Positions 1,714 through 3,728 of a stretch of DNA of 21,898 bases are shown here, piece after piece. Under the pieces are notes generated by a model that did not search any database, was not told where the DNA came from, and worked only from the letters and a program-made list of their open reading frames with translations. The stretch lies in IMG/VR virus record IMGVR_UViG_3300047643_000074, positions 1 to 21,898 of that record. One strand, given 5' to 3'. The first letter of the stretch is position 1. Every line of letters starts with the position of its first letter. The stretch comes from a virus. The position numbers were made by a program, and so were the translations under genes.

Positions 1714-1749
1714 TCATGCTATTATCTTTGGAAGATTAATTTGAGGCAT
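1714..1749 (-). pseudogene. Stranded 5' remnant of the 140-aa cargo gene
   Basis: The ATG at 1749 opens MPQINLPKIIA, identical to the start of the gene at 1396, and then meets TGA at 1716-1714. It overlaps the methyltransferase end exactly as the intact gene overlaps the 98-residue gene. A following ATG at 1717 gives only eight codons before TAG at 1691. This is a recombination scar, not a functional gene. Confidence 0.85.
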
Positions 1750-1752
1750 TAA
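1718..1752. repeat. 35-bp exact direct repeat, copy 2 (slot downstream border)
   Basis: Identical to 1365-1399. It contains the methyltransferase C-terminus (NASN, stop) and the truncated start of the 140-residue gene. Together with 1676-1702 it shows that the methyltransferase and the 98-residue gene have the same borders. Confidence 0.97.
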
Positions 1753-2497
1753 AAGCTTCTTTTATAATCAGGAACAGTATGTAGGCTATTTGCGGAACAA
1801 TGGCATTATCCAGTCCAGATAATCTATATTCGTCCAATTTTCGGGGTAACCCATCATCATCTCGACAAATGAGATTTTCAAATTTCTGCCAGTTGTGCAT
1901 TTTATCATTTCTACTAAAGACATGCTGAAGAAGTTCCCATTCTCCTGGTTTTTTTTTATTTTTTTCTTCAATGAAGCAATTTTGAAATTTCTCGAATATC
2001 TTAAGCCATCCGAAGCGGTTGGAGTAGGCAACAACCCAAAGCCTTGCCCGCTTATGTCGGGCTCCCATTTCACTTGCTTGTATAACTTGCCATTCAATAT
2101 TATACCCGATTTCGGAAAGGGCTCCGAGGATAATTGGTAATCCTTTATTAACGAGGTTCCTGACGTTTTCAATAATGATAAATGGTGGTCGTAGTTCATT
2201 GATGATTCTAAAGTATTCAAACCAAAGTCCGCTTCTTTTGCCTTCAAGCCCTTTTCCTTTTAAGTTTATAATTGATATATCCTGGCATGGGAATCCACCA
2301 GTTAGAACATCAACTTTTGGTAAATTCATTAATCCCACTTTTTTAACATTGGTAAATCTATTAACCAGTGGAAATTTTCCCTCCAATAACCTTAAGCAAA
2401 ACTCATTGTTTTCAACCTGGAAAACATTCTCAATGCCTGCCCATTGCGCTGCCAAATCAAAACCGCCGATCCCGGTGAATAAACTGCGATGAGTCAC
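1736..2497 (-). CDS. C5 cytosine-specific DNA methyltransferase (Dcm family)
   Basis: Transfers a methyl group from S-adenosylmethionine to carbon 5 of cytosine in DNA; in a phage this usually protects against host restriction. Visible motifs are I (FTGIGGFDLAAQWAG, residues 7-21), IV with the catalytic Cys71 (GGFPCQDIS), VI (ENV, 110-112) and VIII (HKRARLWVVA, 148-157). A short recognition region follows, then a motif X-like C-terminus (GLPRKLD, LDNAIVPQ near 229-236). At 253 residues it is a compact phage-type enzyme. The usual LGNA reads LDNA, which might affect activity. The start is GTG at 2497 with GAGGAG 6 bases upstream, overlapping the TGA of the F-like gene. A second gene is nested in its +1 frame. 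Target sequence cannot be read from the protein. Confidence 0.93.
   Translation of the reverse strand: MTHRSLFTGIGGFDLAAQWAGIENVFQVENNEFCLRLLEGKFPLVNRFTNVKKVGLMNLPKVDVLTGGFPCQDISIINLKGKGLEGKRSGLWFEYFRIINELRPPFIIIENVRNLVNKGLPIILGALSEIGYNIEWQVIQASEMGARHKRARLWVVAYSNRFGWLKIFEKFQNCFIEEKNKKKPGEWELLQHVFSRNDKMHNWQKFENLICRDDDGLPRKLDEYRLSGLDNAIVPQIAYILFLIIKEAFNASN
1786..2247 (-). CDS. Nested +1-frame gene inside the methyltransferase (PTPTASD/MGYPENWT protein, 153 aa)
   Basis: This frame lies wholly inside the methyltransferase gene, shifted by +1. It contains two motifs that I recall from the C-terminal regions of many phage-type cytosine methyltransferases or their companion proteins: GFGLLPTPTASDG (residues 69-81) and FVEMMMGYPENWT (127-139). 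A further stretch resembles the segment usually before them (SSEPFPKSGIILNGKLY, 40-56). The same DNA gives methyltransferase motif VIII and the motif X region in frame 0, so both frames look selected. The first possible start after an in-frame TAA is TTG at 2247, with AAGG repeats upstream (AAAAGGAAAAGG); an ATG at residue 17 is an alternative. Function is unknown. A specificity or regulatory partner of the methyltransferase is a guess. Confidence 0.6.
   Translation of the reverse strand: MKAKEADFGLNTLESSMNYDHHLSLLKTSGTSLIKDYQLSSEPFPKSGIILNGKLYKQVKWEPDISGQGFGLLPTPTASDGLRYSRNFKIASLKKKIKKNQENGNFFSMSLVEMIKCTTGRNLKISFVEMMMGYPENWTNIDYLDWIMPLFRK
1949..1965 (-). other. A7-T-A9 slippery tract in the dual-coded region
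   Basis: On the coding strand seven A, one T and nine A follow each other. The tract lies between the two conserved blocks of each overlapping frame. A run of nine A is long enough for transcriptional slippage, and loss of one A would move a reader from the methyltransferase frame into the nested frame. Confidence 0.5.
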
Positions 2498-2520
2498 GCT
2501 GCTCTCCTCAAAATATTTTC
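2494..2520. repeat. Cassette upstream border, first copy
   Basis: Contains the last codons of the F-like gene, the GAGGAG ribosome site and the GTGA overlap with the methyltransferase start. It is repeated with two changes at 1676-1702 in front of the 98-residue cargo gene. Confidence 0.9.
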
Positions 2521-3252
2521 TACTTCTTTCCAGTTTTCATCTACCCAGAGCCACTCGTGCATACAATTATAGCCGCCGCAGTTGCGCAACACGGATAAGC
2601 CCTGGCCGTTGTCCATTGCATTTATTTGAAGCTCCGTATAGAGCAAACCGGCATCCAGGAGGGCTGAGCAGAAGGGGCGTATATGTACATCGTACGGGCC
2701 GAAGTAAGCCGCCTTAGTTAATCCTGCAAGCCCTGCGATAGTTTGTGCGGCGGTATTATCAAAGCCTGCAAGTTGGGTGTTTATAATCGTTTTGGAAACG
2801 CTGAGAGGCACCCGGAGTCTGTCCTGAACAAGCCTTCTTGCCCGTGTCTCTGTAAACTGCCCGTCCCTGTAACGGTCTAGTATGCCCTGCATTTCTCTTA
2901 TAGTGGGCTCGCTACTTTGATTAACCTGAGGGAGTATTGAATAATCGATTGGATACTGAAATGCCAGTGAGTCTTTAATTGCATTGTTGATGTCTATAAG
3001 TTTGTCCCTGCCTGCATCCTGCATATTGGATGAATCGTAGTTTAATTCGTTTATAAAACTGTCGATAGCATTCCGGAAGTCACCGGCTGTAATTGTAAGG
3101 GGATCGGTGGAGGCGAAGATATTACCGACTTCCGTTTCATAATCACGTAGTAAGTTATAGAAGCTCTTGCCGATTGAATTGTCTATTGCAAGCTTTAACT
3201 TATTCCGCTTTTTATAAAGCTCTATATATTTAGGAATATCAACGTACGGCAT
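2494..3252 (-). CDS. F-like phage head morphogenesis protein (Mu gp30 family)
   Basis: Minor head protein thought to help assemble the capsid around the portal. The C-terminal part fits the Mu F family: an RLRVPLSVSKTIINTQLAGF helix, a GPYDVHIRPFCSALL segment corresponding to the family DERTRP-type motif, and a terminal cysteine/histidine motif (NCGGYNCMHEWLWV, near residues 223-236). At 252 residues it is shorter than Mu F and corresponds mainly to the C-terminal domain with a helical N-terminal part. It overlaps the zinc-ribbon gene upstream by 14 bases and the methyltransferase by 4. It lies at the end of the early/middle block, far from portal and terminase, which is unusual because Mu has gp29, F and G consecutively. 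Confidence 0.7.
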   Translation of the reverse strand: MPYVDIPKYIELYKKRNKLKLAIDNSIGKSFYNLLRDYETEVGNIFASTDPLTITAGDFRNAIDSFINELNYDSSNMQDAGRDKLIDINNAIKDSLAFQYPIDYSILPQVNQSSEPTIREMQGILDRYRDGQFTETRARRLVQDRLRVPLSVSKTIINTQLAGFDNTAAQTIAGLAGLTKAAYFGPYDVHIRPFCSALLDAGLLYTELQINAMDNGQGLSVLRNCGGYNCMHEWLWVDENWKEVENILRRAA

Positions 3253-3442
3253 TTGGCTGTTTTTCCTTCTTATAATATGGAATCGCTTTTGCAGTCTGCT
3301 CGCTGATAAACGACCGCTTGCATTTAGGACAGGTATGCCCGCGGTCTGTATGATCCCGGTATTTATGAGTCTTGATTATGCTGAACTGCGAATCAGTTTT
3401 TCTTTTTGGGAAATAGCCGCAGTCTTTATAAGGACATGTCAT
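3239..3442 (-). CDS. Small zinc-ribbon protein, 67 aa
   Basis: Two potential zinc-binding groups are visible: Cys3 and Cys8 (CPYKDC) at the N-terminus, and CPKC (residues 38-41) preceded by a histidine cluster (HKYRDHTDRGH). This suggests one or two small zinc folds that bind nucleic acid or protein. Basic residues are frequent. It overlaps both neighbours (17 bases with the HTH gene, 14 with the F-like gene), so it belongs to the same coupled operon. Com of Mu is also a small zinc protein encoded near a modification gene, so a regulatory role is possible, but I see no specific similarity. Confidence 0.6.
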   Translation of the reverse strand: MTCPYKDCGYFPKRKTDSQFSIIKTHKYRDHTDRGHTCPKCKRSFISEQTAKAIPYYKKEKQPNAVR

Positions 3443-3728
3443 TTTGCGCCCTCTTTTCTTTGTCGGTTTTCTTTGCAGTTGTTACAAGATCATAAAGCCA
3501 GCTTGCGGTGCGGTGCGCTGCCTGAAATTTCTGCGGCAGGCGGGCATTATCCAGCATCTCTAAAATCTCATCATACCTGTCCGGAGGAATATTCACGCCG
3601 CCGATTGATCCGAGAATCTTTTCAAAAATATTCTTCGGGTTAGCCTTATATTTCCCCTTCAGTATTTTACCTATAGCGCCGTGAGATATCCCGGCCTCGC
3701 GCTCTATTTGTCTGATTGATTTAAGCAT
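3426..3728 (-). CDS. Small helix-turn-helix protein, 100 aa
   Basis: The N-terminus (RQIEREAGISHGAIGKILKGKYKANPKNIFEKIL, residues 5-38) reads as a Cro/XRE-like helix-turn-helix, comparable to the N-terminal DNA-binding region of Mu B. The remainder is helical and basic, with no membrane segment. It overlaps the 68-residue gene by 8 bases and the zinc-ribbon gene by 17. It is probably a DNA-binding accessory or middle-phase regulator; its target is unknown. Confidence 0.6.
   Translation of the reverse strand: MLKSIRQIEREAGISHGAIGKILKGKYKANPKNIFEKILGSIGGVNIPPDRYDEILEMLDNARLPQKFQAAHRTASWLYDLVTTAKKTDKEKRAQNDMSL

Follow-up and report, generated by a model that had tools for sequence, protein, structure and literature searches.

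Organization of the locus

The window, by which we mean the whole 21,898-nucleotide stretch of viral DNA analyzed, belongs to a Mu-like phage, with a Mu-type portal (E value, 2e-60) and a Mu transposase C-terminal domain. On its minus strand, positions 1736..2497 encode a C5-cytosine methyltransferase (MTase) of 253 amino acids in frame 0. This protein, referred to as alpha, starts with GTG, 6 nt downstream of a Shine-Dalgarno-like GAGGAG (2504..2509, minus strand), and matches Pfam DNA_methylase (1e-41) and phrog_363 (8e-62). It carries motifs I to VIII and X, of which I, IV, VI, VIII, and X were identified, and lacks motif IX. The catalytic PCQ of motif IV (2282..2290), ENV of motif VI (2162..2170), HKRARLWVV of motif VIII (2030..2056), and GLDNAIVPQ of motif X (1790..1816) all lie on the minus strand.

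Nested in the +1 frame, an ORF of 153 amino acids, referred to as beta, covers 1786..2247 of the same strand and is proposed to encode a small subunit comprising a recognition region and motif IX. Its TTG start codon is found 7 nt downstream of a Shine-Dalgarno-like AAGGA (2255..2259, minus strand). Motif IV of alpha is upstream of the overlap, motifs VI and VIII are within it, and motif X overlaps the last codons of beta. This open frame had been pointed out in a sequence-only reading, and the translations bear it out: beta runs from 2247 to 1786, in frame +1 relative to the MTase ORF at 2497..1736, and the motifs quoted for both frames are present, namely, ENV, HKRARLWVVAYSNRFGW, DDDGLPRKLD, and LDNAIVPQ in frame 0 and GLLPTPTASDG and MMGYPENWT in the +1 frame. 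The DNA of the PTPTASD motif in beta (2008..2028, minus strand) reads AYSNRFG in alpha, and that of beta motif IX, RNLKISFVEMMMGYPENWT (1831..1887, minus strand), reads in alpha as a spacer ending in CRDDDGLPRKLD. The earlier assignment of GLPRKLD to motif X was mistaken; it belongs to the spacer, whose DNA gives motif IX when read in the +1 frame, and motif X is LDNAIVPQ. Beta matches phrog_1008, named 'DNA methyltransferase', at 4e-11, and has no significant match in Pfam or NCBIfam.

The MTase gene and an adjoining 98-amino-acid ORF are located between direct repeats, as if the two formed a cassette that had undergone duplication or exchange. One repeat pair occupies 1352-1399 and 1705-1752 (48 nt, 92%), and the other occupies 1676-1711 and 2494-2529 (36 nt, 83%). 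At the end of the phage record, positions 1-708 contain a gene for a LexA-like repressor/protease (Pfam LexA_DNA_bind and Peptidase_S24).

Occurrence of the +1 frame in related methyltransferases

To obtain relatives, 80 viral and 80 genome loci were gathered by the motif IV pattern alone, which introduces no bias toward the overlap since motif IV is upstream of it. A matching +1 frame was present in 154 of these 160 loci. All 80 viral loci, with GC contents of 0.37 to 0.67, matched the beta profile in the +1 frame at 44 to 147 bits. At a threshold of at least 35 bits, the 80 genome loci comprised 74 two-frame forms and 1 split form, and among the remaining five, one reached 34 bits in the +1 frame. 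Collection searches were done with alpha, since alignment A1 was too diverse to serve as a query. The +1 protein matched 102 phage records by tblastn, and its best places, in Porphyromonas, Bacteroides, Vibrio, Mycobacterium, and Synechococcus phages, also matched the frame-0 MTase. The two-frame arrangement is thus the usual form among relatives of this MTase, both phage and prophage, in these samples.

In two loci (L003 at 2866-3642 and L218), several PTPTxxD-like repeats were seen in the +1 frame between motifs VIII and IX, and the recognition region there seems to grow via repeats that are read in both frames.

Chance and codon bias as sources of the +1 frame

As a null model, codons were shuffled among synonymous positions of each gene, which keeps the protein and its codon usage. 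The longest +1 open frame of the window has 157 codons, compared with a shuffle mean of 60 (P = 0.003). Across 95 genes, the +1 open frame was longer than in shuffles at P ≤ 0.01 in 69, whereas the other same-strand frame and the three reverse frames gave 1, 1, 2, and 0 genes, respectively. Scored with a beta profile that was built without the window, the +1 frame of the window reached 150 bits versus a maximum of 92.7 bits in 100 shuffles. With this profile, the score exceeded all 100 shuffles in each of 81 loci, with a mean z of 7.9.

Selection in the two frames

As the window lacks a close relative, selection was measured in other clades. There, each difference between close relatives was assigned to a class according to its effect in each of the two frames; the rates given here are naive counts, uncorrected for multiple hits and derived from nonindependent pairs. 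In two phage clades, frame-0 synonymous changes were approximately 2- to 4-fold lower inside the overlap. For mycobacteriophages, changes that are synonymous in frame 0 and nonsynonymous in the +1 frame dropped from 0.18 per site upstream of the overlap core to 0.05 inside it. The reverse class rose from 0.02 to 0.05, and double-nonsynonymous changes inside the overlap amounted to 0.006. In the AT-rich Bacteroidales phages, the frame-0-synonymous/+1-nonsynonymous rate was 0.71 before the overlap, 0.39 from the start of beta to motif VIII, 0.21 from motif VIII to the end of beta, and 0.90 after the overlap. The reverse class over the same four segments was 0.27, 0.16, 0.48, and 0.32. Beta therefore changes more slowly than alpha 3' of motif VIII (0.21 versus 0.48), and from these rates alpha is the dominant frame as far as motif VIII and beta is the dominant one past it. 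Both frames are under selection. The synonymous-site check proposed in the sequence-only reading thus found frame-0 synonymous sites constrained inside the overlap.

Division of motif IX and the two folds

Motif IX, which is VEMMMGYPENWT in the window, scored 40.9 bits in the +1 frame and -14 bits in frame 0. With a scorer that had been trained partly on the same loci that it scored, 151 of the 160 loci had motif IX in the +1 frame only and 3 had it in frame 0 only; a single locus had it in the third frame, 5 had it in no frame, and none had it in both frame 0 and the +1 frame. Because of the overlap between training and scored loci, mutual exclusion is the strong point of this result. A search with a simple regular expression led to much the same result, apart from a few frame-0 matches that arose by chance. 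By kind of locus, the +1 frame carried motif IX in 77 of the 80 viral loci and in 74 of the 80 from genomes; with the relatives keeping the +1 frame open and its motifs in place, the earlier suggestion of dual coding is supported. The family consensus of the beta C terminus is LNPxxVEWLMGFPxGWT, and the end of beta aligned to motif IX (LTPTECERLQGFPDGWT) of single-chain relatives with an hhalign probability of 91. In three split relatives (L013, L063, and L166), motif X is missing from frame 0 and instead follows motif IX in the +1 frame. The presence of both motifs there therefore ties the +1 motif to the MTase.

An AlphaFold model of alpha (pLDDT, 85) matched M.HhaI with a Z score of 25.6 over 205 residues. 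It was confident at residues 1-160 and at the motif X helix and poor at residues 163-215, and alpha has no folded small domain. Modeled alone, beta folded poorly (pLDDT, 71; pTM, 0.40). The beta model had no match among PDB structures, and the beta profile gave only chance-level matches to PDB sequences, two of which, at an E value of about 1, were plant DRM-type methyltransferases aligned via the middle and end of beta. Since the model of beta alone is poor and has no PDB match, its assignment as the small domain is based on the presence of motif IX and on exclusion.

Single-chain relatives with another +1 ORF

Another set of loci (L125, L170, and L201-L212) comprises single-chain C5-MTases that have motif IX in frame 0 and a different conserved +1 ORF. 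This ORF, with the sequence KYYLSPKACAGILRRAEKRGKxLP, matches phrog_16143. It shares the N-terminal region of beta and lacks motif IX. It beat synonymous shuffles in 10 of 10 cases (z, 8.9 to 11.1), and frame-0 synonymous changes were 0.54 in its region versus 0.86 before and 0.80 after it. These sequence features suggest that the +1 product can have some role other than carrying motif IX, and this ORF may hint at an earlier function of the +1 protein. A tentative scenario, to which we give slightly less than even odds, is that the +1 protein has long accompanied phage C5-MTases and has its own function, and that the recognition domain entered the +1 frame later through frame changes. Such a move would have yielded the two-frame form and, where motif X moved too, the split form. 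A family tree groups the single-chain forms together; it is unrooted and so gives no direction of change.

A proposed two-subunit enzyme

We propose, with a probability of roughly 0.83, that the locus encodes a heterodimeric C5-cytosine MTase, with the catalytic domain translated in frame 0 and the recognition domain in the +1 frame from an internal start. Alpha would provide the large catalytic domain, made up of motifs I to VIII, a poorly folded spacer, and the motif X helix. Beta, presumably synthesized from a start codon within the alpha gene, would supply the small DNA recognition domain, consisting of the variable region and motif IX. The +1 frame very probably gives the missing DNA recognition half of the MTase. 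The two chains are expected to assemble into the active enzyme, with both being needed for activity. Such an enzyme would probably methylate the DNA of the Mu-like phage and thereby might protect it from host restriction. The sequence-only reading had spoken of dual coding of two related functions; the dual coding stands, but its two products most likely represent domains of one enzyme rather than separate related functions.

Translation of beta probably starts at the TTG at 2247, 7 nt downstream of AAGGA, or at an ATG further along. Two relatives (L007 and L039) have an ATG with AAGGA at a similar location. An internal start codon ahead of the beta core was found in all 170 loci; the window itself uses TTG as the candidate start, and in 23 of the 170 relatives no start is accompanied by a 4-nt Shine-Dalgarno match. 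The AAGGA-TTG arrangement and the constraint on beta 5' of motif VIII argue for a start of its own.

Three other explanations were weighed. Conservation of frame-0 residues together with codon bias could by itself produce +1 motifs in a shadow ORF, and it does generate some +1 similarity, as window shuffles averaged 59 bits. This is extremely improbable: all shuffles were outscored in all 81 loci regardless of GC content, and frame-0 synonymous sites are more constrained in the overlap than in its flanks, so that shuffles and site-class rates rule it out for the family. Programmed ribosomal frameshifting near motif VIII would instead reach the +1 frame within a single alpha-beta fusion chain. 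VAYSN and LPTPTASD share the same DNA, and if ribosomes shifted by +1 at this point, the recognition region would follow motif VIII. However, constraint on beta upstream of motif VIII would be needless if the shift occurred at motif VIII, internal start codons precede the beta core throughout, and motif X stays in frame 0 in most loci, which would require a second shift. A frameshift fusion is disfavored by the internal starts and the upstream constraint on beta, and we regard it as very unlikely.

Somewhat less improbable, though still unlikely, is that beta is a separate accessory protein, such as a regulator, chaperone, or anti-restriction factor, and that alpha, with a small domain of an unusual kind, is by itself a complete MTase. 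The +1 ORF that shares the N-terminal region of beta in single-chain MTases with frame-0 motif IX would fit this, as would the structural coverage of M.HhaI by alpha from end to end. The absence of any locus with motif IX in both frames speaks against it. Past motif VIII, moreover, alpha is poorly folded and less constrained than beta, and in the split relatives motif X, too, is on the +1 chain.

Comparison with known methyltransferases

The described layout of the two-subunit enzyme proposed here resembles that of M.EcoHK31I, although the latter is a bacterial restriction-modification enzyme with the known target YGGCCR and the window encodes an MTase of a Mu-like phage. An alternative frame within the gene for the large chain reportedly encodes the small chain of M.EcoHK31I (Lee, Kam and Shaw 1995, Nucleic Acids Res. 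23:103). In this respect, the window is similar, its second chain being in another frame within the large-chain gene. M.EcoHK31I, a two-polypeptide MTase, has motifs I to VIII and X on the large chain and motif IX on the small chain (PMC3404938); likewise, in the window, motifs I to VIII and X are on the large chain, and motif IX is off it and on the second chain. The earlier remark that such an arrangement had not been seen described as a system does not hold, as M.EcoHK31I already exhibits this division of motifs (PMC3404938). The predicted recognition domain of M.EcoHK31I was placed on the large chain (PMC3404938), whereas selection and folding here point to the small chain as its carrier.

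M.AquI is also a two-polypeptide C5-MTase whose second chain has motif IX, as in the window, but its second chain carries motif X as well (PMC3404938). An M.AquI type is ruled out for the window, where motif X (LDNAIVPQ) is in frame 0; the split relatives L013, L063, and L166 are of this type. The single-chain enzymes M.HhaI and M.HaeIII have the catalytic fold and motifs in common with alpha. They carry motif IX and the recognition domain on the same chain, whereas frame 0 of the window lacks both, and the split between alpha and beta corresponds to their two-domain layout. With no motif IX in frame 0 and residues 163-215 poorly predicted, alpha is not a conventional C5-MTase with motifs I to X on one chain. 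In mycobacteriophage methylases, the ShiLan domain is a mobile insertion that encodes an HNH endonuclease (PMC11855218). In both cases a phage methylase gene conceals a second protein in another frame, but the ShiLan domain is an insertion, whereas beta is a second reading of conserved sequence that belongs to the methylase itself.

Prevalence and annotation

The arrangement is of a kind already described for a few bacterial enzymes, and what looks new is its prevalence; no paper on phage MTases with a nested frame was found in a partial coverage of the literature. It is an unusually clear same-strand overlap, with each frame holding one domain of a single enzyme, and it recurs across phages and bacterial genomes at widely differing GC contents. 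With its many natural examples, its split forms, and its single-chain relatives, the family allows direct tests of how overlapping genes originate. Gene callers keep one frame of the pair, and such MTases may be cloned and studied minus one subunit and then miscalled inactive or orphan. None of the inspected records that had both frames intact carried annotations for alpha and beta at once. Alpha alone was annotated in six (L006, L008, L009, L010, L012, and L237, an intact prophage copy in Escherichia coli), and beta-frame ORFs alone were annotated in three (L005, L014, and L016).

In mycobacteriophage Llama (L011) and related phages, the overlap differs in length by one base, so that neither alpha nor beta stays in frame; the same match of 92.3% was listed for Llama, Ochi17, Modragons, Seabastian, OfUltron, AlpineSix, and Jinglebell. 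In a prophage of E. coli PCP07014 (L238), stops occur at nearly the same place, around 1765, in the alpha and beta frames, and this MTase carries a pseudogene annotation.
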